Assembly: GCF_019059575.1 (NCBI RefSeq)
Contig: NW_024881627.1
Span: forward strand, 372,001-436,000
Direction: 5' to 3'
Source: Amphibalanus amphitrite
Taxonomy: Eukaryota > Arthropoda > Thecostraca > Balanomorpha > Balanidae
Length of the DNA stretch: 64,000 nt
Part shown: in pieces, positions 1 through 62,720 of the stretch
Position numbering within the stretch: the stretch's first letter is position 1
Layout: every line of letters begins with the position of its first letter
Program-made: the position numbers and the translations under genes
The notes under the pieces: generated by a model
Databases searched by the model: none
What the model was told of the DNA's origin: nothing
What the model saw: only the letters and a program-made list of their open reading frames with translations

Positions 1-2097
1 GTGTTTGATAGATGCTGATTATTTTTGCTGAAATGTGTCGTTAGATATCGTTGCACTCATCTATACAGATGGGCCGGCGTCATGAAGTTACATCGGACAA
101 TGAACGGACAATGAAAAAGATGCAGCAAAAAAAGGCTTTCTTTGGTAGCTTATCTTTTCACGATTAGGAGACTGATGGGAACTATTATTGCTATCACCGT
201 TAGTTCACTTTGTCCGTCACTTGTTCGATTGATATTGGTGACGCCGGCCCGTCGCAGCACCAATTGGTACTGGCGACAGATCTGAGATAGCTCCGGGACT
301 GCTGAGTATGTACGGCGCACGGTACGCCAACTGGTGGACGAGACCAATACACTCAGTCTTTGAGAGAATCAGCGGCGTTTTCTGTATTTCTCCGTTCATC
401 CACTTACCAATAATGGAGTGGTGATGGGCTATGACAATGACTGCTCCAGGTTCGCCACTCACGCTTCCTTCGTGACTGCCCTGCATTCTCCAGCCTGGCA
501 TCATTATTGCGTTGTTAATCGTCATCCACCTCCAACAATACCCACCTTCCGGCTTCCGCGCCTCCCATTTCTCACCATTACCGAGCAGCCGTCTGTGATC
601 GGTCTGAACGGAGCGGGGCTGACCGGCGGCGGCCCCGCGGCGGTCTCCGCTCGTCCCCACACCGTCCCTCGGGACCGGAACGGAACGGCTGACGGAAACG
701 GTCGGCCGGGGCCGCGCCGCTCCCACGTCCGACTCCGAACTGTGCCAGCCGGACGGACCGTTCCCGGTGGGCCGCCCCGCCGCCCGCGCCGGAATCGTTC
801 CCCGGCCGTGGTGGCCGGCCGGTGGCGGCTCGGCGGACGGGCGCGTGCCGACGGTGACGCTGTTTGGTAGCGGTGGTCGGTGACGCTGTCCGGCGGCGGC
901 AGCCGGCGCACGGGGCCGTCCGGACCGGTTCTGGCCATGATTTACCCCTGTTTTGTCGTGACTGTACCGTACTGTTGTATCCTCCGGTGCCGCGATGAGC
1001 GATGTCTGCACTGGCGCGAGCCCAGCGTACTCTGCACAGGTGTGCAGAATGGGAGGAAAGTTGGGTGACAACTTCCGCCACCGAGTCTCAGACGAAGGTG
1101 CTGCCATGCTTGGCTCACAGAATTCAGGCTACTTCGCTGTGAGCGATGAATTGTTCCACGGGCTTGATATTAAAGCCGTACAAGTCTCACAATCGTCCTT
1201 GGCTTTTCCATGGAAACAATAATCCGCTGGTCACCAAATTGATGGGCTTCCTCGCGTCGATTTTCCTTCTTCATAAATTGAAAATAAACCCCGCTGTGTC
1301 TTTTCTTGGAAGAATGTTCAAAAGTATGTTTGCTGACTCCTGGTCCGTGTTTGATTATCGTCGCTACTCTACCGATCGATAGAAAGGTCATTAAAAAGTG
1401 CGTCTCCTTTGTCTATGCGAAACACCCCCGGGCGTATGTGCCCAGGAGGCACGATACGCCACTTTTCGCCACTTCGTAGCAACTAGCATGTCGACATTTT
1501 CGCCACTTACCTAGGTCAGGTGGACATTGGCGTGGCTGTTTGTTCTGATGGACCACTGGGCCGTAATTTGTAGGATTAGACCGGGCGCACAGAGTACCTA
1601 TCCATCACCGTCGTTGTTGGCACACGCTGCCGCGCTGTCAGCGCCTCCGCCACGTCCGTGAACAAACGAGGCCGTCATAACGACCTAGCTAGTTCCAATA
1701 CACAGACGCGTAATTTCGCTGTAACAGCTAGTTCAAAGACAATTGTCGCATAGTTTGCAAAGCTGTAAAGATAAAGGTCGTTTGATCTATAATCGGTCAG
1801 ACCTCAAGTGCTCAATACTTTTTACTTTGTGACTTTGGTACTTGCCGCTGTCGTCAAGTGACATATCGCCATCACCCCATTCGTGTGTGTGCACGGTTAT
1901 TGTGTTTGACAGGGGCTGTGTGAGCGCTGTGGGCCGCGGCTCGGCTGGCTGTGTGGTGCTATGGGCTGTAACATTGACTAGGCTCGTATGGATATCAGTG
2001 GCCGGGGTACCGCGCTGGGGGACGGTTGGTACTCTGCCGACGGGGACTGTATGAGCGCTGAGCGGTCGCCGTCTGGCGGGACGCTCACCGGCGGAGG
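1..2097. other. Gene-free left flank with GC-rich patch
   Basis: No open frame here shows a recognisable domain. A GC-rich block at about 560-950 is open in several frames on both strands, which is what high GC content produces by chance. The overlapping frames share no coding signature. I see no RNA gene. It may include upstream regulatory DNA of the receptor gene that starts at 2098. Confidence 0.5.
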
Positions 2098-3531
2098 ATG
2101 GCCGGCGAGCGGCGTCACTCCAGCCTGCTGCGGCTCAGCCTGGGCACGTGCGGGGTGCTGACACTGACCGGTCTGCACCAGCGGAGCCCCGGGCGCGCCT
2201 GGCGGCTGGCCACGGCGCTGCCGCTCGGCTGCTTTATCGTGCTGCTGCTGACGGCCGCCGCCAGCTACCTGCTCGAACTGCACACCATCTGGGAGGCGCT
2301 GGTGGCCTCCAACGTGCTCAACTTCCTGCTGAAGTCGGGCATCGTGCTGGTGACGTTCGTGGCGCAGCGGGCCGGCCTGCGTCGGCTGCAGGCGCGGCTG
2401 GAGACGCTTGAGGGCAGGGCCGGCCCGCGCGCCGCCGGAGCCGGCATGCTTGACCAGCTGCAGGCCGTCTTCTTCTGGACCCTGGCCATCACTTTCTTCG
2501 TCTTATGGATCTTCTACGAGAGAGCCACCAGTCACGAGCACGAGAACCACTACTTTGTAATCTCCTGGGCGCCGGAGGTGCTGTACAGCCCTCCGTGGAC
2601 GTACGCCAGATACGGGTTCCAGCTGTTTGTCCTCTTCATCGGCACCTGTTTCATGGGCGCCTTCGACAGCTGCTACTTCCTCTGGATGAAGGCGGCGGTC
2701 TTTCATCTGAGGGTGATCAGATCCACGCTGCAGGAATGCTGCCAGAGCCGGGCGACTGATGATTTGGAGGCGGGGTCTGTCCCGAAGACTGCTGCGCGTG
2801 TGGACGGACATCGCTCGTGGACAGGCGACGGTAAGTCTGTCACGGGAACCGACAAGGTGCGGCCTGTGACCGACGGAGCCCCCTCGGCCAACTGGCGACT
2901 GAAGCTGTGGTCCGGTGTGGTCGGCGACCAAAAGGTAACACCCGGTGCAACGCTGTTCCTCACAGCGCCCGCAATCGAGACTCTTCACGACTCGTCCGGA
3001 CAACACGACGGCGGCGACATCTCAGCTACCACACTGCAGGAGCTCAGTGACTACTACGACGATGTCTGTCGCTACGTCACCTCCGTGAACCAGGTGACCG
3101 GCCTGCCGTCGTTTGTCGTCCACGCCAGCACGCTGATCAACATCCTGCTGGACTGCTACCTGGTGCTGCGGCAGGTTCTGCACCTGGACGGCGCCAACAC
3201 GGCGCACGTGCTGTCCTACTCACTGGAGCTGTGTCTGTTCGTGTACCGGCTGTCGGCCTACTCGCTGGGCGGAGACGCGGTGACCCAGGAGTCGGTGGCG
3301 CTGCGCAGACAGCTGCTGGACGTGCCCTGGCGCCGGCTGACGGCGCAGACCAGCCGGCAGCGCGACGAGCTGCTGAGCAAGCTGCAGATGCCGCTGGCCG
3401 TGGAGCCGCTCGGATTCTTCACCATGAAGAAGGGGAACCTGCTGTCGATGACGGGCCTGTTCCTCACCTACTTCGTCATCATCATCCAGATGGTACAGAT
3501 GGCCGGCGTCGACAAAAGCCAACACCCCTGA
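2098..3531 (+). CDS. Gustatory-receptor-like seven-transmembrane chemoreceptor
   Basis: Predicted 477-residue membrane protein, probably a ligand-gated cation channel of the insect-type gustatory/odorant receptor superfamily acting in sensory neurons. Hydrophobic segments lie near residues 37-60, 72-90, 120-141, 176-199, 337-358, 372-393 and 449-469. The last segment carries TYFVIIIQMVQ, which fits the family signature TYhhhhhQF near the C-terminus. The start is the ATG after GCGGAGG, and no better in-frame start precedes the first hydrophobic segment. The family is usually about 400 residues. The excess is a hydrophilic stretch around residues 245-310 that begins with a perfect donor GTAAGT (2831) and ends at an AG (3025). 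Removing these 195 bp keeps the frame, so this may be an unspliced intron and the mature protein may have 412 residues. Sequence divergence is high, so the subfamily is unknown. Confidence 0.8.
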   Translation: MAGERRHSSLLRLSLGTCGVLTLTGLHQRSPGRAWRLATALPLGCFIVLLLTAAASYLLELHTIWEALVASNVLNFLLKSGIVLVTFVAQRAGLRRLQARLETLEGRAGPRAAGAGMLDQLQAVFFWTLAITFFVLWIFYERATSHEHENHYFVISWAPEVLYSPPWTYARYGFQLFVLFIGTCFMGAFDSCYFLWMKAAVFHLRVIRSTLQECCQSRATDDLEAGSVPKTAARVDGHRSWTGDGKSVTGTDKVRPVTDGAPSANWRLKLWSGVVGDQKVTPGATLFLTAPAIETLHDSSGQHDGGDISATTLQELSDYYDDVCRYVTSVNQVTGLPSFVVHASTLINILLDCYLVLRQVLHLDGANTAHVLSYSLELCLFVYRLSAYSLGGDAVTQESVALRRQLLDVPWRRLTAQTSRQRDELLSKLQMPLAVEPLGFFTMKKGNLLSMTGLFLTYFVIIIQMVQMAGVDKSQHP

Positions 3532-6184: not shown

Positions 6185-6950
6185 CTGTGTTGCCGTCTCC
6201 ACGTTTTGGTGATATCTCCCCTACTGTTTATTGCAGTCTCCATTTATGTTTATACCTACCATCTCTACTGTGTTGCAGTCTCCATGCATGTTGATATCTC
6301 TCTAAGTTATGTGTTACAGTCTCCATGTGTATTGGTGTTATCTTTCTTCTGTGTGTTGCAGTCTTTATATATTGGGGGTTTCTCTCTACTTTGTATTGTA
6401 GTCTCGAAATGTTTGGTGATATCTCTACCGTGTGTTGCAGTCTCCGTATGTGTTGGTGATATCTCTGTACTGTGTGTTGCAGTCTCCATTTCTGTTGGTG
6501 ATATCTCTGTACCTACTGTGTGTTGCAGTCTCCATTTCTGTTGGTGATATGTACCTACTGTGTGTTGCAGTCTCCATTTCTGTTGGTGATATGTACCTAC
6601 TGTGTTCTGTTGGTGATATCTCTCTACCGTGTGTTGCAGTCCTCATATGAATTGTTGGTACTTCCCTACTGTTTACTGTTTTCTTCCATACGGTGTGCTG
6701 CAGTCTCCATGTATATTGGTGATATCTCTGCACTGTGTCTTGCAGTCTCCATATGTGTTGGTGTTATCTTTCTACTGTGCGTTGCAGTCTCCACATATGT
6801 TAGTGATATCTCTCTACTGTGTGCTGCAGTCCCATTACATTGGGGGTTTCTCTCTACTGTGTATGAAAGTCTCCAAATGTTTGGTGATATCTCTCTACCG
6901 TTTGTTGCAGTCTCCATATTTGTTGGTGATATATCTACCTACTGTGGTAT
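6185..6950. repeat. ~42-bp minisatellite, about 18 degenerate copies
   Basis: Repeated unit reads roughly TGTGTTGCAGTCTCC, then a variable segment, then TTGGTGATATCTCTCTAC. Copies vary by substitutions and small indels, and some are truncated. Each copy holds a pyrimidine-rich stretch followed by TTGCAG, so the array presents many 3'-splice-site-like sequences on the plus strand. No exon of a recognised gene adjoins it. Confidence 0.92.
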
Positions 6951-39389: not shown

Positions 39390-41546
39390 CTATTCCTTCA
39401 GATTATCCAGCACCCAGTCCAGGTACTCCGTGACACGGGTGTAGATCCCAGGCACGTTCCTCGTCCCACAGCGCACAGAGCCGAACGACACGATTCCGAT
39501 CTGGACAAACGGCAGCCGGCGGCCGGGCATGGAGAGTCCCACCAGCGGTCCGCCCGAGTCTCCCGAACAGGAGTCCTTGAGCCGCTCACCGCCGGCGCAC
39601 AGCTGCGTGCGCCCGATGTTGGCGCGCCGCCGGAAGATGGGCACACACTCCTCGTGGGACAGCACCGGCAGGCGCACCTCCAGCAGCTTGGAGCTGCTCT
39701 CGCCGCCTGCCCAGAGGAGATCAGAGATGGGTCAGAAGGTGCACAACGGGTCGGGCAGGCCGGGTCAGGTCAGGTCAGGTCGAGTCAGGTCAGCTCGAGT
39801 CGGGTCAGGTCAGACCGGGTCGAGACGGGAGAACGGTGAACGGGTGGGTTAGTGCTGAAGCTGCCTAATGCTACATATAAAAAAAAAAATCGTTTAACCT
39901 GGTTCAATGAAATACTTTTTCACCAAAACGTCAGTAAATGTTTCGATAGACGTGTTTCTCGTATTTCTTTTTATCGATGTGTAGGAAATTAAATTCAGTT
40001 TCAAATCGTGCGACAGGAAAGGTCGAGGTGTAGGCTTAGTGTCGGTTGTTATATTTTTACCACACTTAATTGTTTTATCCTCTGTTTCATGTCCTATGTA
40101 AATTGTTATTTATGCAGGAATAATAGCCCCATTATCGGATCATATATCTGGTCGGGTATTGAGGTCGTCGACTGGCGTAGAAATATTGCTGTCATTTATT
40201 GGTGAACCTGGGTGCCTGTCCCAAAGGCCGTTAATGTCCTGGGCGCCTCGTGGTATTGGTGTGCCACATTGGATCCCAGCTGACTTTTTCACGGCCCCTG
40301 CAGACCTCGAAGACCGGGCCCGATGCGGCCGACGGTCGATAGTGCGCGGTGTTGGTGTACACTGTACAGGGCGGCGTCGGCGGCCACTGACGAGCCGCCG
40401 CCAGAGCCGCGCCGGTCGCCACCCGTTATGGCGGGCGCTGCGGACCAGCCACCGGCCACCGGTCGGCGGCTCGTGGCGCCGCTGGTGGCCCGCGGCGCCC
40501 TCCTGGTGCTGCTGTTGTTCCTGGTCTATCTGCAGGCGCTCGAGTACCGCGCGCAGCCGGTGCTCTCCGCCATGACCCGGTGGCGCGCCGCCTTCCCCCG
40601 GCTCACGCTCTGTCCCGAGGGGGAGATGAGAGACCCGTTGATGCTGGAGCTGTACCGGCAGATGGCTGCCGGAAACCTCTCCGTGGCAGAGTACTATCGG
40701 CGCAGCACGCTCGACATGAGAGACTTCCAGCTGAACGTCATGAGGGTACTGGGTGAACTGGCCACCGGTGAGAGCTGGAATGATCGGGAGGTCGCCATCC
40801 CCGGCGAGGGGCAGTTCGGCGCCTGGCGAGAGCGCTACTACCTGTCCAATGAGTACGACGGTCTCGGTTTGACGCCGCTGCGCTGCGTCACCTTCGAGCC
40901 CAGCGATCGCCTGCACGGGTTCCGCAGCTATGGCACCGTCGACGTCGAGTTGGTGCTGCGCGTGCCGGTGCCGTTTTTCAAACGTCACGGCGGAGATGAG
41001 ATGGGTATGTTCGGCGAGGGACGGCGCACCTACCGTCTGTACGTGCACGGCCCCGAGGAGCCCAGCGTCGGCGACCTGGCGCGCGGCGGCGAGTACCCGC
41101 GCACGCCGTTCGTGCCGGTGCCGCCCGGCGGCGGGGTGGTCATCTACCAGGTGACATCTCGTCAGCGGCGGCTGGCCAACGTGCGCCGCCGGCCGTGCCG
41201 CTCGGAGCCGGGCTACTCGCCGGCGCGCTGTCTGAAGGAGTGCCAGTGGCGGCGGCTGGCGGCGCACACCGGCTGTCGGCTGCCGCACATGGTCTCCGTC
41301 GGGGTGTATCTGCCCGAAACGAGCGGCCCCTTAGACCACCTGCCGGCCTGTCGACGGCTGGTCCAGCTAGACGCTTACCAGGGCGGTAATCTGTTTGTCG
41401 GGGCCGGCAACACTGAAGGCTGTCCTCTCAGCTTCGAGTGGAACCACGGGTATGCACAGTGGGAGGCGGCAAGAAGACCAGAGAATCATTCCGGCTCTCT
41501 GCGGTATAGCAGCGAACGACTGATTGATGGTGAAAACACGGCACCA

Positions 41547-41592
<46 letters not shown>

Positions 41593-44500
41593 TGCCGCCG
41601 CCACCGGTAGCACCACCCTTGCCAACGGTTCGCAGAAGCGACACCGCCGAGCAGTTCGTGCCAAATGAACTATTATCTTCCCTGGCCGACTGTGAGTGCC
41701 CCGCCGCCTGCAGTGAGGACACCTACCACCTGCGCTCCGACCAGCTGAGTCTCGGCAGCTCCACCCTGAACACGTGTCTGGTCTACGTGAAGCTGCAGGT
41801 CGACCTGCTGGCCGAGCGCGTCGAGGAGAGCCTGGCCATGAAGGAGGCCACCCTGCTGGCCAACATCGGCGGTTTTGTCGGCGTGGTGACGGGCGCCTCG
41901 CTGTTCGCCGTGGTGGCGGTGCTCGAGCACCTCGTCCGCTGGGTGGTGAGCAGGAGACGCAGGAAGGGCCCAGTGGGCCGCGAGGAGATTCACCACCCAC
42001 CCGCTGGCGTTGTCGAGGTCTGGAGAGAACCACATCACATGGAAACGTTCCCTCAAAATGGACGGCCGAGGGATGTGCGCATCTGGCTGAGGTAGACAAG
42101 AAACTGGAAATGGGCTGGCTCTTATTTTTTGCGCGCAGGAAATGGGCTACGAGTACGTGCATCGAAGATGCACATAACCGGTCCCAGTTGCTGAGATAGA
42201 CGTCAAGTAGATATAATGTGTTATCGAACACAGGTAATGCGTGCCTTTTTTGGGCGCAGTTGAGATGGTCAGCATACCGTCGTATCACATTGTGGCCTAA
42301 GGCCAAATTCGTTTCGATCAGATATACTTGTCATTGAAGATATTGCATTCAAAGGCCCTTGATAGATAAACACTTTCAGTAAAACGTTACGGTGCCCTGG
42401 CAGCGAAAGTAATATGAAGTCCCGAAGTAACTAATAAAAACTTAGGCTTTAAATTCCCGATAACGATAAAAAGAATACAAAAAGTCTTACAGACAATGAC
42501 CAGCAACAGATTGAACTTATCGTGTAAAAAATATATATATATATGTCACTTTACTATAGCAAAGTTAACCGTCACGTGGTAAAAAAACACCATCGTAAAT
42601 ATGAAGGCACAATCAATATTATTAACGTCACTCAAGTAAAGATCACACTGAAAGACCAGAAATAAAAGGCAGATACATTACGTTTCACCATGAATGCTGC
42701 ATTCTGGCCAAGTGCAGTCGGTAAATATTCCGGCCGTCCGGTCCACTCAGGGTATAGGTCCACTCACTACCCGGGCCGCCTGTTTATACACTCACGTGCA
42801 GAGGTGAGTCCGAATCCGACCGCCCACGGACGCTCTCCGACAAACTGCTCCTCTCGCTGGCCGAACGGCAGACACAGCGGAGACACAAACGCTGCGGAGA
42901 GGGCACAGAGTATACGGTCAGCCGCCGGTCGAACGGCAGACACAGGGGAGACACAAACGCTGCGGAGAGGGCACAGAGTATACGGTCAGCCGCCGGTCGA
43001 TCGGCAGACACAGGGGAGACACAAACGCTGCAGAGAGGACACACACACCACAGAGTGCGGTCAGTCACCGGTCGAAATCAGACCAACTTCAGAGTTCAGC
43101 GGTATGAGCGGTTGTAGTATAACGCATCGAGGCTTGATTAACACGAGCGTAAAACTGGTTTCATCAGTGAGCCGTCTATCATTCATGCCATATGTAGAAT
43201 ACGAGTCATAGTTTGGATCAAGTGCCTAACCTATAGTTTGGCTGCCCTTTGGGCCCCTTCATTGGAATGATGATATCGCACTGACTTCAGTTAGTAATGA
43301 GCAGAAATAAATGAGCAGACGCCGCTTATATATAATAATGTAAGTCAATGTAATTACTTATTAGTACCGTACCAATTCCAATGCTGTCTCCGAGGTAGCC
43401 GTATGTCTAATGCCTTTTGACCCGCTATTTATAACATACATCCATTATATGAGCATTACCCTCTGGTGTGAAACAATTATATTTATCGATTAATCCTGGT
43501 AAACATCGGACGCAAATGCATTAATTACATTCGATATTCGAGCCTTATTTTGCAGCTCCCTCGTGACAACACGGTCCCTAGCGCTATGAGCCGTAACGTC
43601 ATCCTCCCTGACCTTACGATTTGTAACGTAACGAGCCGTGCCGTCACACCCGTTCCCTGATCGACCTACTTGTCAGGTTGGCCGGCCGAGACAGCCGAAC
43701 TAGCGCGATGTCGTTCCTGAGACGGATGGGTGAGTCGTACTGGTCATGAGTGATGACCTCCTCAATGTCAAAGTTCTGAGGCGGGTCGGCACACCGCTGC
43801 ATGCCGTCGCTGAGACGCTGAGGGTCAAAAGGGTCACCGTTAGGTCAAATGAGGTCATTGAAAGGTCAGACGAGCTCACCGACAGGTCAGAAGGGTCACC
43901 GATTGGTCAGGCAAGGTCATTGATAGGTCAGACGGGTCACTTGGTCACTGAAGGATTAGGCACCCTTGTCTTAGATCGGAGTGGGGTCATGACCAGGTCA
44001 GGCGAGGTCAAAGTAGGACCCATGACGATTGTAAGCGAAAAACGTTCATGCATCAATAATCAAGGACTATGAAGTCTCTAAGTAACGTGATGCGTTAGTT
44101 CAACTATTTTACGTTAATAAGGAAAAATAAAGCGTTTTCAAATGTTATTCGCCCGTATGACAGCTCAGTAAAGCGGCAATTATCTCCAATGAGGCTCACC
44201 TGACAGTCTAATTCATTGTCGAGATCGTGCTCGCCGAGACGAATGGTAGATCTGAAAAGGATTGTTGGTTGTAAGAAAGTTGTTCTAGCTGAATGGAACG
44301 ATTCCAAATCACTGCTGCATATGATTCATATCAATGTCTCTTCTCCATTACTAATGAACAATCGCTGCAGACTCATGAAAACTTCTGTGATGCATGAATG
44401 ATGCATGCATGCCTTCGCGCCGCCGCCCATTCACAGCGGGAAGTCGGTGTATATTATAGTATTTATAATGTAGGTACTCACAGGGTGAAGTCGGTGGGCA

Positions 44501-47500
44501 GGTTTGTGACGCAGTGGGCCGCCGTCAGCACGTAGCGACTGTTGATGAGAGAGCCGCCGCACCGGTACTCCACCTCCTCCTTACCGGTCACTGTAGCAGC
44601 GACAGCGGCGGGCCAGTGAGAACAGAGGACAGCGAGAGGGGGCAGCTAACAGGTACCGGTCACTGCAGCAGCGACAGCGGCGGGCCAGTGAGAACAGGCA
44701 GGGCAGCGAGAGGGGGCAGCTAACAGGTACCGGTCACTGCAGCAGCGACAGCGGCGGGCCAGTGAGAACAGAGGGCAGCGAGAGGGGGCAGCTAACAGGT
44801 ACCGGTCACTGCAGCAGCGACAGTGGCGGGCCAGTGAGAACAGAGGGCAGCGAGAGGGGGCAGCTAACAGGTACCGGTCACTGCAGCAGCGACAGAGGCG
44901 GGCCAGTGAGAACAGAGGGCAGCGAGAGGGGGCAGCTAACAGGTACCGGTCACTGCAGCAGCGACAGCGGCGGGCCAGTGAGAACAGAGGGCAGCGAGAG
45001 GGGGCAGCTAACAGGTACCGGTCACTGCAGCAGCGACAGCGGCGGGCCAGTGAGAACAGAGGGCAGCGAGAGGGGGCAGCTAACAGGTACCGGTCACTGC
45101 AGCAGCGACAGCGGCGGGCCAGTGAGAACAGAGGGCAGCGAGAGGGGGCAGCTAACAGGCGTCGAGCAGATCAGGGCAGGGAGCAGGCAGGAAACAGTGC
45201 TCGATAGTGAAAAACTGCCAACAACTGACAGCATGCGAGATTGCATAGAATATGCGACGGTTGAGCTTGCAATGCACGCTTGTGTGTTCATGCTGAGCTT
45301 AATTTAACTTGATGGCACAAGTCACAGTTTAGACGTTCATCGTGCTGCTAAAGTGTTTCGATCAGCGTACGAAAAAAGAAATCCTACCACCCGTAGCGGT
45401 GCACCCAGCGGGTGCGCTGTGTCACCCAGTTCCGCTCACCTGTGTACCCCAGAGCAGCGAGCCACGGGTGTCCGCCGATCCGGACCAGCGTGCCGCCGAC
45501 AATACGCTCCGCCAGAATGATACCGCACGTGCCGTCTCCCTGCGGCAGCAGATGTCTGAAACACGGACACAAGTGATAGTCAGTGGCGCAGAGACTCCGA
45601 CTGTTTAAAGGAAATAATTCACTTTCACGAAATTATTTTTTTTGCAATGGATTTATGATTTTTTATGTTCAAAATGATCAGCAAAGAAAATAAAACCTAT
45701 TTATAACAAAAGATTATTTTCTATATTTTGATATAGGAAGAACTTTTCAGTTTCTGTAAGGCACAGGCGATCCAGTATGAAAAGAGCATGGGTCCCGAAA
45801 ATTCTTCAGAAACTAGAGAAATTATCGCGGCCACCGGCATTTGGGCGATCTGCTGCTGCTGAATGTCCTTATTGATCAGTACGAGAATTTCTCTAGAGTT
45901 CTCGTAGATAATTTCTCTAGTTTCTTAAGAATTTTCGGTACCCATGCTCTTTTCATACTGGATGCGAATATATGCAAGGCACTCATCGACACCTTTTTCG
46001 GGACGAGAAATAGAATATCTTTGCCTAGGGTGATCGTTGGGCTGTAAAAGCTCCTGATTTATGCTCGTCTCAGCCCAGGCTACGGAACTGCTATTCCAGT
46101 TCAAAACCCATGTTAAAAAGTGAACTATTTCCTTTAACAGATAACCGTCAAAGTCCGCCTCCGATATTTTACTATAACAAGCAGTCCTTAACCTTCGATC
46201 GTTTAAATACAGCCGAGAGTAACACCGAGTCCAACCGTCTCACAGATGGGCGTTAGTAGCAATGACTGTTTGACAACTGTTTATAGCTCTAACGGTTTAA
46301 CCAAATCACTGATAACACCGATCGTTCAATGCACAACCGTTACTAGCACCGACCATCTAACAGTTAATCGTTAAAACCTCCCGACCGTTTACCAGAAAGT
46401 CTCTAATAACACCGACCATCTAACACACAACCGTTACAATGCCGACCGTGTAGCAAAAATTGCTTGCAACAGCGACACGAAGCAAATGTCAAAAACGCCT
46501 AATGTTGAATATGACTCGGTAAAACACGTATGTAGTAAAGAGCAAGTAGCATACGAATCTTTTCAATTAGCAATTACATATAAATACGCGGACCGGTTTC
46601 GTCTATGAAAGACTTCTTCAGCGCTTTTTTCAAAAACGTATAACGTCAAAAAAAAAAAACGTCAAAAAAAAGCGCTGAAGAAGTCTTTCATAGACGAAAC
46701 CGGTCCGCGTATTTATATGTAATTGCTAATTGAATAGATTCGTATGCTACTTGCTCTTTACTACGTACCTGTCCAATATATCTACATAAAACACGTATGT
46801 ACGTACCGTTTTTTAAAAAGGGCTACGTGATAATACCGACCATTAATATTTCATATAGAACCGCTAGTCGGGCATTGTGCTAAACAGCGTAAGTAGGCCA
46901 TGTCACCGACAAACGAACAAAACCGCAAAATTAGCAACATTGCAAAACATCGGCCCGGTAACGGTCGGCTTTATCGATTGCCGGAGCTGAGTGAATCAGA
47001 TAAACCACTCTGCAGTCCTCACCTGTTGGGGTGGACCTGTGTGCAGTTGTCGCAGACAGGCTCTGGGGAGGGCGTCGCTATGGGTCCCTCGGTGACAGGC
47101 TCGGTGACAGGCTCGGTGACAGGTGGATCAGTGACTGGAGGTTCGGTCACTGGAGGATCAGTCACTGGAGGTTCCGTGACAGGAGGATCAGTCACTGGAG
47201 GTTCAGTGACCGGAGGCTCAGTCACAGGAGGTTCGGTCACCGGCGGTTCGGTGACCGGTTTTCTGGGGACCGGCGGTTTGGTGACGGGCACACGATGAGC
47301 ACAGCAGACAAGCGGTATCCGACCCTGCAACAAACGTGAACATTGATTTGTGTCGCTCATACATGCACATTGCACATTAAACAAATACACTAGACTAGAT
47401 GATCGTCAGATACCAGAATAAAGTCCCTTTGTACCAAACAACATTGCATAGCATTGATCTCGCAATGTTTTTGGACCCATAAGACATGCAACAAAGCACC

Positions 47501-49699
47501 CCTGATAAAATGACACTCAGGCGTATAAAGTACAGCGCAGACCCGCGCGCTGGCGCTGCCGTGTCGGGCCACGGGAAGGGCCGCAGGCTCACCTTGAAGC
47601 CACAGATGCTGCTGCGGATGTTCTGAATGTCCTGCGAGCTGGGCCTGTTCCTGATCATGCTGAGGATGGCCGGACAGTTGGAAGCGGTGACGCAGTCTCC
47701 CGTCCGGTCCCGCCAGTCGGTACAGTCCTCCTGCCGGCGCTCTGCGGACCGGGTACGGCAGATATATCAGAGCTCGGCGAATACACGTATATAGAGACGG
47801 ACAGGCAGAGACAAATAGAGCGAAAAATAGAGACGACAGGGACAGACGTAACCATTATCTGAGCGAACAAAGAGACGGACAGACCCATAGAGACACATTA
47901 TCTGCGCGAATATACAGACGGACAGGCGCATACTGTAGACACATTATCTGAGCGAATGTAGAGACGGACAGACCCATAGAGACACATTATCTGCGCGAAT
48001 ATACAGACGGACAGGCGCATACCGTAGACACATTATCTGAGCGAATGTAGAGACGGACAGGCGCATACTGCAGACACATTATCTGAGCGAATGTAGAGAC
48101 GGACAGGCGCATACTGTAGACACATTATCTGAGCGAATGTAGAGACGGGCAGGCGCATACTGTAGACACATTATCTGCGCAAATATACAGACGGACAGGC
48201 GCATACTGTAGACACATTATCTGAGCGAATGTAGAGACGGGCAGGCGCATACTGTAGACACATTATCTGCGCAAATATACAGACGGACAGGCGCATACTG
48301 TAGACACATTATCTGAGCGAATGTAGAGACGGGCAGGCGCATACTGTAGACACATTATCTGCGCAAATATACAGACGGACAGGCGCATACTGTAGACACA
48401 TTATCTGAGCGAATGTAGAGACGGACAGGCGCATACTGCAGACACATTATCTGAGCGAATGTAGAGACGGACAGGCGCATACTGTAGACACATTATCTGA
48501 GCGAATGTAGAGACGGGCAGGCGCATACTGTAGACACATTATCTGCGCAAATATACAGACGGACAGGCGCATACTGTAGACACATTATCTGAGCGAATGT
48601 AGAGACGGGCAGGCGCATACTGTAGACACATTATCTGCGCAAATATACAGACGGACAGGCGCATACTGTAGACACATTATCTGAGCGAATGTAGAGACGG
48701 GCAGGCGCATACTGTAGACACATTATCTGCGCAAATATACAGACGGACAGGCGCATACTGCAGACACATTATCTGAGCGAATGTAGAGACGGGCAGGCGC
48801 ATACTGTAGACACATTATCTGCGCAAATATACAGACGGACAGGCGCATACTGCAGACACATTATCTGAGCGAATGTAGAGACGGGCAGGCACAAACAGAC
48901 CATGATCTGGCCGCAGATCGGGACGGTCAGACACGGACAGACACATCAGACGGACCGCCGTCAGGCCACGGTATGCATCGTGACGGTAGGTATTTCCAAA
49001 GTAGCTCTCGGTGATCGGTGTCGTGTCCGTTTCACAATAACTGGTCTTGTTCATGACATGATCACGATGTAGAGGAAAATGCCAATAAACGTGACTTGCA
49101 GCATTATTTCTGGGCATGGCCTCACCCCCCCCCCCCCACACACACACACATACAGACTTATGTATAATAATTCTTGAACGTATGTCGTTATGTGTGACAT
49201 ATCGATTGTCTCGCTAGGAAACTACCAAACTTACACACAAATATGTTTTTATGTCGCTCAAGTAAATGTTTTCATCCCGTTAATCTGCATTATTCTCTTG
49301 TCTAAAAACTCTTCAATCGAGCAAGTTGCGTTGTCATTTCTATTTTATTTTCTCCGACGTACCTACGGGTGTTTTAGTAACTGGATCGGAAACGTTTGTT
49401 ATAGAGATATTTGTTTATTGCCCCACATCGTTTAAAAGTTCTGTTGGTCACACATATACGGAAAGTGAAGTTAAGTAACTACGTTTTAACATACAAAGTG
49501 GATAGTTTTAGTCTAGCCAGTTCATAACAGATTTAGACCAATGAATACTGACTTGTCCATGCTATTAAATCAACTGAGACCCCATAAGCTCACCTTCGTT
49601 AAAGTTGATATCGGGTGCTCTCCGGTTCCGACTGAGCGCCTGGGTTGGAACCAGCGCAGACGTCACCAGCAGCACCACACCGGCGAGCAGTGGTCGCAT
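39390..49699 (-). CDS. Clip-domain trypsin-like serine protease (9 exons)
   Basis: Secreted zymogen of the arthropod clip-protease class, which acts in haemolymph cascades such as melanisation and Toll activation. Exons: 49699-49594, 47741-47593, 47324-47023, 45555-45440, 44590-44482, 44251-44200, 43796-43670, 42891-42796, 39706-39390. All junctions match in phase and give 457 residues. A signal peptide (MRPLLAGVVLLVTSALVPTQA) precedes a clip domain with six cysteines (about residues 46-93, ending PLVCC). Next come a Pro/Thr linker of VTEPPVTDPP repeats and the activation site ER|IVGG. The catalytic triad is His250 (TAAHC), Asp307 (NDIAL) and Ser403 (GDSGGP). Asp397, six residues before Ser403, predicts trypsin-like cleavage after Arg/Lys. 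The C-terminus is GIYTRVTEYLDWVL. The usual GWG motif is GFG. A DEG/ENaC gene lies antisense in intron 8, and several introns carry minisatellites beside exons. Confidence 0.93.
39755..39835. repeat. GGTCA-type repeat near exon 9 acceptor of the protease gene
   Basis: GGTCA / GAGTCAGGTCA units occupy about 80 bp in intron 8, starting about 50 bp from the last exon's acceptor. On the gene's strand this is TGACC-rich. Confidence 0.8.
40428..42095 (+). CDS. DEG/ENaC (pickpocket-type) sodium channel subunit, nested antisense
   Basis: Predicted 555-residue amiloride-sensitive-type Na+ channel subunit of the plasma membrane, acting as a trimer. The first transmembrane segment is at about residues 15-38, followed by the post-TM1 FPRLTLC (56-62). 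The extracellular cysteine-rich region includes CRSEPGYSPARCLKEC and the hallmark DCECPAAC-x3-TY. The second transmembrane segment lies near 476-507: ANIGGFVGVVTGAS, with the G-x-S selectivity-filter motif (GAS), then FAVVAVLEHLVRWVV. The ATG at 40428 is chosen because it places TM1 at the usual distance. The longer upstream frame starts with an unlikely leader. An odd (CCG/CCA)n tract at about 41543-41608 encodes some 20 prolines just before the DCECP motif; part of that stretch might be an unspliced intron. The reading frame is otherwise uninterrupted. It lies entirely inside intron 8 of the protease gene on the opposite strand. Confidence 0.93.
42433..42438 (+). terminator. Candidate polyadenylation signal of the DEG/ENaC gene
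   Basis: AATAAA about 340 bp downstream of the channel stop codon, the first clear one on this strand. Confidence 0.45.
42862..43075. repeat. 68-bp tandem repeat that copies the exon-8 3' splice site of the protease
   Basis: CGAACGGCA / CGATCGGCA begin at 42862, 42930 and 42998, exactly 68 bp apart; the third unit degenerates. On the gene's strand each unit contains the CCTCTCCGCAG acceptor (CTCTCTGCAG in the degenerate third unit) and the first bases of exon 8, encoding FVSPLCLP or FVSPVCLP. Only the copy nearest the exon body continues into the full exon. Confidence 0.92.
43815..44015. repeat. GGTCA-rich degenerate repeat beside exon 7 of the protease
   Basis: Units such as AGGTCA followed by 4-9 variable bases and GGTCACCGAT repeat about 14 times in intron 6, starting about 20 bp from the exon-7 acceptor at 43797. 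On the gene's strand this is TGACC-rich. Confidence 0.8.
44582..45159. repeat. 72-bp tandem repeat (8 copies) that copies the exon-5 3' splice site of the protease
   Basis: TACCGGTCACTG recurs at 44582, 44654, 44728, 44800, 44872, 44944, 45016 and 45088. The period is 72 bp, with one 74-bp unit. On the gene's strand each copy reads a pyrimidine-rich stretch, CTGCTGCAG and then TGACCGGTA, the start of exon 5. The first copy overlaps the real exon start (44590). The long frame encoding a 24-residue repeat is a by-product. Confidence 0.95.
45605..46137. mobile_element. 533-bp MITE-like element with ~22-bp terminal inverted repeats and internal foldback
   Basis: TTAAAGGAAATAATTCACTTT at 45605 is mirrored at 46117-46137 with one mismatch. 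Inside, a second inverted repeat (45771-45962, arms about 55 bp, from CCAGTATGAAAAGAGCATGGG) forms a large hairpin. Non-coding, within intron 3 of the protease gene. Confidence 0.8.
46529..46768. repeat. Large near-perfect palindrome (foldback element)
   Basis: Arms of about 115 bp run from GTAGTAAAGAGCAAGTAG inward to GCGCTTTTTT and back, with a tiny A-rich loop. They would form a very stable cruciform or hairpin. A direct repeat, AAAACACGTATGTA, occurs at the left edge and again near 46,790. Intron 3 of the protease gene. Confidence 0.9.
47094..47280 (-). repeat. 18-bp coding repeat (Pro/Thr linker) in protease exon 3
   Basis: Units such as GTCACTGGAGGTTCG, alternating with GGATCA, encode PVTEPP/PVTDPP repeats between the clip and protease domains. 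They are in frame and likely form a flexible, O-glycosylated linker. Confidence 0.9.
47780..48895. repeat. 46-bp minisatellite with 92-bp higher-order structure
   Basis: About 23 units of 46 bp. Two unit types alternate for much of the array: GAGCGAATGTAGAGACGGGCAG and GCGCAAATATACAGACGGACAG, each after the shared GCGCATACTGTAGACACATTATCT. This gives a 92-bp higher-order period. It fills most of intron 1 of the protease gene, beginning about 40 bp from the exon-2 acceptor. Confidence 0.93.
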
Positions 49700-53280: not shown

Positions 53281-56200
53281 TCACGATTTTCTGGCCAGCG
53301 CCTTCTTGAACATGACGCCGAAGGCCTCGGCTCCCGGCTGGTTGGCCTCCGCGTACCCGGGCAGCGTCGTCTTCAGCTTGTTCAGCCAGGCGCTGACGAC
53401 GGGGTAGGCAGACAGGTCCAAGATGCCAGACGCCTGCGAAACAGAGCATCGGGAAAATTAGACACAGGACACGCATCAATCACAATGTTTTTTCAAACTG
53501 GATTTTCTGGACCTCAGCCCGCGATCGCCGGGACTCGATGTGCATGACCTGACATCTATCGTCAGATCGGTGAACTATGCTTACATAGACGGCAGGCTGG
53601 AAGTGGAGACCTTCAGAGGAGCGTCCTCACGGAGCGACCCTCATCGATCGACCCTCCCCCAGCGACCCTCCTCGATCGACCCTCCACGAGCGTCCCTCGA
53701 GCGTCCCTCCCCGAGCATCCCTCACAGAGCGACCCTCCCGATCGTCCCTCACCTCCAGTGTGGACACAGTGACTCCCAGGGCGATGTCGGCCACCGTCAG
53801 ACTGCTGCCGGCCACGAACCCCCGGTCTCCGATGAAGCCCTCCAGCAACGTCAGAGCCTGCTTCGTCTTCGTCAGGGCGGCCTCATCCACCTCTTTGGCA
53901 CCTCCAAAGATGATGGGGTACTGGGGAAGGTGAGGCAGGAGGACTAGTTACTGAAAGAAGTCTGGATCCGACTTCTAGAAAAAGTTTGGGTCGGCGTAAT
54001 ACGCACACTGTACAGCGCTGGAGCGTACCTTTTCGGGTAGCCAGATATATCAATCGTTTGCTAATTAGCATACAATGATGGACATTTATAAAATCCCATC
54101 TACACCATTTTCGAACCAAGTTAAGACAAATGAAGCCCAATTTAAAACTGTTGATTTTTTAATTAAAACAATCGAAAAGTGTGTTAACCCGCGCGGGGCT
54201 GGGGTCTCCAGCCGAACGCGCGGGGCTGGGGGGGGGGGGTAAATTTTACCCCCCTGTTATCTCCCGAACTAATGGTCCGATTTGGAAAATTCAAACGCCA
54301 ATCGAAAGCTCTCATCACGAACTACTAAAAACATGTACTTAATTTAAAGTTTGAGGTCAAAGTCAAGGTCAGGTCAAGGGTACAAATTGCAAGTTTCTAC
54401 AGTATCGGCCTTGCACCGTAGTTGCCGAAGAATGGAGTCATGGACTGAGACTGATCGCCCAAAACGTGTTCTTAGGCTACCAAGACAATATTCGCTGCAT
54501 ACAATATCATTCAGAGGTCAAGGTCAAGGTCAGGTCAGGTCAGGTCAGGTCACCAAAAACAAAATATAGAAAAGGGCATGTGCGACACATGTTTTATGGG
54601 TCATTTTACTCATAGAATTCAATAGGCACACTCAATAAGTGATATGGACCACCTCTGGATGAATTTCAGGTCAAGGTCAGGTCAAGGTCAGGTCAAGTGA
54701 GGTCAAATTTTGAAGTTGGTTGTTAAGGCCTAAAAAGGTGTCTATCTGATGCAGTTTTTCACGGCGAATCGAATGGTGCTATTTTTGTTTTCGTACGAGG
54801 TCTAGAACTTTCAAAAAAGTCATTTTTCAAAAAAATTGTGTGTCGTGACGTCATAAAATTTTGAATAACTCCCACATTTTTGAACCGATTCTTGTAAAAT
54901 TTGGTATGTAGGTGCACATAGACCACTTCTCTGACATATATTCCGGTTTTTTCGATAGACTCAAAATTTTGGATTTTATAATGATTTTCCCAAAAAAGTC
55001 AGTTTTTTGAAAAAAATTTAGGCCAAAATCCAAAATTTTCAAAAAAACGAGATAGCCATTTGATAGACAAAGTAAAATTACGTATACCCCTTTTTTTACG
55101 TCTTGATTCCTTTAAAAATGAAGATGTTAGCGGCGTTTGAACTTTTGCTGTTTTTGAGGCGAAAATGGCGAACATGACGTCACTAAAACGTCAATTTCTC
55201 AAAAATTTTCCGACGGATTTCGCTCAAATTTTCAGGGAACGTGTCAAATTGATGTAAGAAAAGGTACAGAAAGTTTGGCGGCGCTGCGCGCCGCCGTTTT
55301 TGAGATATCGCAAAAATTTGCGAGGGGGGTAAAATTTACCCCCCCCCCCAGCCCCGCGCGGGTTAAAACACGTGACATTCAGCTTAAGACGACCAACACG
55401 TGATTTCGCGTGTCAGTTGTTTTAAGCTCAATGTCACGTGTTTTAACCCACTTTTCGATTGTTTTAATTCAGAAATCTCCAGTTTTAAATTGGGCTTCAT
55501 TTGTCTTAACTTGGTTCGAAAATGGTGTAGCTCTCCCAGGAAAAAAAAAAACGGTTCGATTTGGACTTCCTCAGGAGATGACATTAGTCTTCGCTGCTCA
55601 CCACACATTTTCCGAAGCTGTCGTACAGTGTGCCCATGTCGAAGTAGAGTCTCTGGTCGACCACAGCTCTCTCCTCAGGGTCGGTAGGGTACAGGGAGGT
55701 GTCCTTACCGTATTTGCTCACCAGGTACGTCATGATGGCGCGACTGAAAACAGGCGAGTCGCACATCAGAGAAAACAACAGAGACACAGCTGAACAGTTG
55801 AACACATTTGACGGAAGCCTGGTAAATTTAGATGAGTTTCCATCCGGGACCAGTGACCACCGTCAGGTTTCCTTCGTTTATGGTTATCATACAATCATCA
55901 CTTATCGTTTAGCCTCGTCATAAAACGGTTCTAGTATCCCCAGACCCCTATCCTCGCTGTTATTTGACAGTTATTACAAAATTCGGTGACAAAAGTCATC
56001 GAATAAGTCGTACATTACCTCTCCCATATGACGAACTTTCCGTCCACCAGAGTCGGGATGGTGTGCTGGGGGTTTATCTGTAACATAACACGACATCACC
56101 GTTAGTATGAAAGGTGGGTTCGGGACTGGGTGGAGTGCCGACCTGCGCAAACAAATGATAGATGCTGCCTTTATCGGACCGGCGTCCGGTCAAACACATG

Positions 56201-58791: not shown

Positions 58792-62720
<3,929 letters not shown>

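Follow-up and report, generated by a model that had tools for sequence, protein, structure and literature searches.

Candidate mirage-type minisatellites across intron/exon boundaries of a predicted CLIP-domain serine protease gene

Mirages were reportedly first described in amphioxus, by Canestro in 2002. In the Adh3 gene and the globin genes BflGb6 and BflGb9, the name stands for minisatellite-like tandem repeats that lie across intron/exon boundaries, with units of 10–72 bp in Adh3 and 150–160 bp in the globin genes (PMC3087553). As reported there, mirages occur on both the acceptor and the donor side, their inner copies are homogenised while those at the cluster boundaries are not, their length is unstable, and many copies retain the AG/GT signals; Adh3 data and reverse-transcription PCR of the globin genes suggested that regular splicing is left undisturbed (PMC3087553). 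Two arrays that are probably of this type are described here from a 64,000-nucleotide stretch of contig NW_024881627.1 (positions 372,001 to 436,000; the whole stretch is called the window). Both lie in a predicted CLIP-domain trypsin-like serine protease gene, at the acceptors of exons 5 and 8 (Table 1).

Tandem Repeats Finder recovers the array before exon 5 with a period of 72, 8.0 copies and 98% matches. A sequence-only reading of the window had described it as eight 72-bp copies; eight copies are present, but one of them (44727–44654) measures 74 bp, and the exonic piece carried in each is short, the 9 nt TGACCGGTA. The other units are 0–2 bases off the first – three are identical to it, two have one change at a shared position, and the unit adjacent to the exon has two private changes. 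The 74-bp unit, an inner one, carries the indel. The copies hold a branch-point-like motif, pyrimidines, CAG and the exon start, with CTCAC 27 nt upstream of that start in all eight. Seven are decoys, with exon starts at 45096, 45024, 44952, 44880, 44808, 44736 and 44662; the last copy is the predicted real acceptor, whose first exon base is 44590.

The array before exon 8 has a period of 68, 2.8 copies and 95% matches in the same program. The repeat had been put at about three copies, and it is certainly there; its count is better given as two decoys plus the real site. Each 68-bp unit consists of CGTTTGTGTCTCC and some 13–17 further exon bases, followed by an intron tail with CTCTCCGCAG at its end. 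The decoys copy ca. 26–30 exonic nt, with one or two bases different from the real exon, and a diverged intron tail lies upstream of the units. CTGAC is found 27 nt upstream in two of the copies and 34 nt upstream in the outermost. At the breakpoints, 8 of 11 bases are common to the intron (TTCGACCGGTG) and the exon (TTCGGCCAGCG), a level reached by 377 of 200,000 random pairs, with the 11-base span picked post hoc, after it had been seen. Read unit by unit, both arrays agree with the claim that the repeats contain a complete-looking 3’ splice site together with the start of the exon.

That only the last copy is joined to a full exon, as the same reading had it, is borne out by homology, which places the acceptors at 44590 and 42891. 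The exon assignments are predictions, made by aligning the spliced frame with solved CLIP/trypsin proteases across both junctions. The product matches the Pfam domains CLIP (2e-11) and Trypsin (2.7e-51), and the best solved relatives, the only two to pass a cut-off of 1e-40, are 2xxl (Gram-positive-specific serine protease, 6.6e-55) and 2olg (pro-phenoloxidase activating enzyme-I, 1.1e-51); some of the best PDB matches are presumably insect proteases. The 2xxl alignment continues across both junctions, gap-free from exon 7 into exon 8 and with two residues gapped near the join of exons 4 and 5, and so supports both acceptors. Because homology runs across both junctions, the last copy of each array is taken to be the true acceptor.

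The decoys look usable, yet as simple alternative acceptors they are predicted to give unusable products. All seven exon-5 decoys translate to GYTVTGTC*, a stop after five codons (V-T-G-T-C). With exon-8 decoy 43027, translation ends at residue 364; decoy 42959 causes a frameshift in which the catalytic end containing GDSGGP is lost and translation stops at residue 485. With a premature stop or a frameshift from each of the nine decoys in the two arrays, no useful isoforms are expected from them as they stand, and the earlier suggestion that they might feed useful alternative splicing does not hold up. The strength of the sites was scored with a matrix built on 16 of the 19 predicted acceptors of the window, the three edge-repeat acceptors being excluded. 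Exon-5 decoys scored 4.4–5.2 (real site 4.1), and the exon-8 decoys 5.5 and 5.3 (real site 5.3).

The arrays are best explained as mirage-type minisatellites: tandem duplications across the intron/exon edge which selection has tolerated, and of which mainly the last acceptor is used. The probability of this reading is put at about 0.83. The first duplication would have had one end in the intron and the other a few bases inside the exon. Selection would tolerate such an event, since it leaves the final acceptor and the entire exon intact. Unequal exchange or slippage may then have multiplied the inner copies and evened them out; the inner units are nearly identical, and the exon-adjacent unit at exon 5 and the outermost tail at exon 8 are diverged. 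The microhomology at the exon-8 breakpoints fits a first duplication driven by microhomology or slippage, which unequal exchange may have followed. The spliceosome would most likely take mainly the last acceptor, because it alone stands next to a full exon, at a normal exon length from a donor. At best, the arrays would add noise to splicing, perhaps to a degree that varies with copy number.

Several observations weigh against this explanation. The outermost exon-5 unit is undiverged, and a comparison of the exon-5 array breakpoints gave no shared run at the junction and no microhomology. The choice of acceptor is itself a prediction from sequence, and because decoys score about as well as real sites, noticeable misuse may occur. 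The matrix is also crude – of the 613 intronic AGs, a set that includes the decoys, 7–13% equal or exceed the scores of the examined decoys. Finally, the assembled copy number could be wrong, though neither array contains N.

Further edge copies are found in the C-terminal part of a CHD-like gene (58792–62720, minus strand; Pfam CHDCT2, 1.5e-77), which we take to resemble Mi-2. A search for copies at 36 predicted splice edges (19 acceptors, 17 donors) of the protease, glutathione S-transferase (GST) and CHD-like genes gave three edge-spanning copies beyond the two acceptor arrays: one at the acceptor and one at the donor of the CHD exon 59449–59293, and a weak one at the donor of protease exon 5. 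The CHD acceptor edge has a single extra copy. Its intron tail aligns as well as its exonic part, with a score of 15 against a shuffle mean of 4.6, and none of 2000 shuffles reached 15. The CHD acceptor decoy scored 4.3 in the matrix and the real site 2.6; the real site carries CTAAC at 19 nt, and a search for yUnAy up to 50 nt from the decoy gave none. All 10 decoy acceptors examined keep CAG and a score like that of real sites, by a weak matrix. Use of the CHD acceptor decoy would bring an early stop (residue 372 of a partial model) and that of the CHD donor decoy an altered end (452 vs 466), while the exon-5 donor decoy would lead to a stop at residue 262. This last copy is the weakest of the edge cases and drops out at a score cut-off of 15.

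Table 1. Predicted protease gene, its boundary-spanning repeats, and edge copies in the CHD-like gene (positions within the window)
Feature	Position	Strand	Details
CLIP-domain trypsin-like serine protease gene	39390..49699	-	nine coding exons, GT-AG introns; spliced open reading frame of 464 aa
Protease exons 1-9 (predicted)	49699-49594, 47741-47593, 47324-47023, 45555-45440, 44590-44482, 44251-44200, 43817-43670, 42891-42796, 39706-39390	-	
Exon 5, predicted real copy	44482..44590	-	carries TAAHC motif
Exon 8, predicted real copy	42796..42891	-	from spliced open reading frame and alignment to solved proteases
Exon-5 acceptor array	44582..45159	-	eight copies (7 x 72 bp, 1 x 74 bp): intron tail + CAG + TGACCGGTA
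Exon-5 donor edge copy	44431..44496	-	one copy, 47 bp downstream; decoy exon end 44435; score 14
Exon-8 acceptor array	42855..43043	-	68-bp unit; decoy acceptors 43027 and 42959, real acceptor 42891
Outermost diverged intron tail of exon-8 array	43028..43076	-	begins at TTCGACCGGTG microhomology
CHD exon 59449-59293, acceptor edge copy	59421..59515	-	63 bp upstream; decoy 59512; 29 exon bases
CHD exon 59449-59293, donor edge (59293) copy	59217..59310	-	68 bp downstream; decoy exon end 59225

With two genes and both types of edge affected, the duplications might have been targeted: a process tied to transcription or splicing, such as nascent-RNA/DNA hybrids or nicking at intron ends, would prefer exon edges in this genome. 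This is judged unlikely. Tandem events were collected from the three gene bodies at a score of at least 14, with low-complexity segments of period 1–3 removed (n=18). Three coding events were dropped (in protease exon 3, CHD exon 2 and the proline run of a nested channel gene), leaving 15 non-coding events, which were compared with events placed randomly in introns with an exon overlap of at most 35 nt (alternatively 20 or 60 nt). One-third of the non-coding events (5 of 15) span an edge by 3 nt on each side, with ca. 1.2 expected (P 0.005, post hoc), which favours targeting. For these five the P value is 0.0003 with an overlap of 20 nt and 0.041 with 60 nt, and across score cut-offs of 12–25 the edge-spanning events range from 5 of 15 to 3 of 7 (P 0.005 to 0.029). 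The result weakens to 4 of 15 (P 0.026) when 4 nt are required on each side, the CHD acceptor being one ungapped base short. Without the two originally reported arrays it falls to 3 of 13 events, with P values of 0.016, 0.076 and 0.25 for overlaps of 20, 35 and 60 nt.

Two other comparisons point in opposite directions. Eight hand-picked intronic arrays lie closer to splice sites than shuffles within their own introns (Fisher P 4e-5), and the six that are left without the reported two still do (P 0.008); two of the eight, in GST intron 3 and CHD intron 2, lie near no splice site. When positions rather than events were counted, no excess was seen: a copy scoring at least 14 was present on the expected side at 7 of 36 edges (29 had none) and at 14.5% of 1500 random gene-body positions (binomial P 0.26), and a copy spanning 8 nt on both sides at 3 of 36 edges and at ca. 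10% of random positions. Most of the matches at random positions probably fall around the large arrays.

The odds of targeting, low before this position-based result, were lowered slightly because of it. The sequence-only reading had suggested that duplications start at intron/exon edges and had proposed a check against shuffled positions. Within the window, the proximity of arrays to splice sites and the count of events speak for this idea, but the position control and the event test without the reported arrays do not. The repeats themselves are certainly beyond chance, their placement at exon edges only suggestively so. Preferential duplication at edges is only hinted at, because a single window was sampled, the test was itself prompted by two of the five cases, the position control gave no excess, and selection could suffice to account for the remaining pattern. 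Slightly more doubtful still is the broader notion that duplication seeded at exon edges keeps yielding ready-made arrays of splice sites out of which new introns and exons could arise, a notion for which there are five events (one weak) in two genes.

It is very unlikely that the arrays are regulatory, with decoys that send transcripts to mRNA decay and a copy number that tunes protease output. The decoys do look usable and would yield early stops or frameshifts. There is no sign of maintained function, however, the stop reached from decoy 42959 falls within the last exon, a position at which decay is not expected, and regular splicing in amphioxus is reported to be undisturbed by the mirages (PMC3087553). 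Least probable of all is an assembly artefact, in which a single edge or two alleles were mis-assembled into copies: the inner units are highly identical and one amphioxus mirage was apparently misassembled in a draft genome (PMC3087553), but some units, including that of 74 bp, have private changes, and the copies in the CHD-like gene are diverged rather than identical repeats.

Other repeats and genes of the window were noted alongside these. At the GST gene, which is presumably delta-like, an array with a period of 28 and 78% matches (53625–53753, minus strand) starts at the exon 4 donor and has GTGAGG-like motifs; it was left out of the edge-spanning count. Protease intron 1 has a 46/92-bp array of about 23 copies (47828–48890, minus strand) with many CAGs, which stops 86 bp short of the exon-2 acceptor, and protease exon 3 has a coding tandem repeat (47088–47258, minus strand) that encodes a V-T-E/D-P-P stretch linking the CLIP domain to the trypsin domain. 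In the protease gene, TGACC repeats closely precede the acceptors of exons 9 and 7 (39730–39812 and 43823–43947, minus strand). TGACC/GGTCA was considered as a branch-point satellite of intron ends and rejected on the clusters within the three annotated genes, of which those in the CHD-like gene and GST intron 3 are hundreds of bases from an acceptor. Nested on the opposite strand in protease intron 8 is an intronless frame of the amiloride-sensitive sodium channel family (ASC, Pfam 1.2e-14; 40284–42095, plus strand). Elsewhere, an array at 6186–6946 (plus strand) has 18 diverged copies of ca. 42 bp with 68% matches, many of them like 3’ splice sites (pyrimidines, then GTTGCAG), and a single open frame at 2062–3528 (plus strand) matches the 7tm_7 chemosensory receptor family (7.6e-14).

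The sequence features by which mirages were described in amphioxus recur here. The boundary lies within the repeat unit at protease exons 5 and 8 and at CHD exon 59449, splice signals are kept at the 10 decoy acceptors (by the weak matrix), both types of edge are copied (donor copies 44435, which is weak, and 59225), and the arrays are homogenised inside with the boundary unit excluded, though the outermost exon-5 unit is undiverged and one inner unit has an indel. The likeness to the amphioxus mirages, as far as the published description goes, is thus in boundary-spanning units, both sides, inner homogenisation and kept signals, while the genes are others and the phylum is apparently another, judging from an arthropod-like gene content: CLIP and trypsin domains together, PDB matches that are presumably insect proteases, a 7tm_7 chemosensory receptor and the presumably delta-like GST. 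Length instability and reverse-transcription PCR are evidence from amphioxus; the present arrays are known from the sequence of one haplotype.

Copies of splice sites are also known from intron gain by tandem duplication. In the potato RdRp gene the copied block is described as mostly the upstream intron-exon structure (PMC4974935), and a Drosophila survey deals with introns gained by exonic tandem duplication (PMC2891723). There too the duplicate brings ready splicing signals; in those reports, however, the new intron is spliced, whereas the acceptor copies described here run into stops or out of frame. In human segmental-duplication genes with variable internal tandem repeats, it was proposed that minisatellites at exon-intron boundaries may alter gene structure (PMC2812944). 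That work, unlike the present case, is presented as concerning recent human paralogs and as a survey of repeats within exons.

A narrow literature search, covering titles and the openings of abstracts, named no boundary-spanning minisatellite from an arthropod, which is weak evidence of absence. Repeats of this kind can mislead gene prediction as well as short-read assembly. If they are common beyond amphioxus, they could be a general route to the turnover of splice sites and the gain of introns, as well as a natural experiment in which the spliceosome chooses among eight near-identical acceptors. The kind is already known from amphioxus; what is seemingly new is the apparent lineage, and the occurrence of five cases (one weak) within 64 kb.

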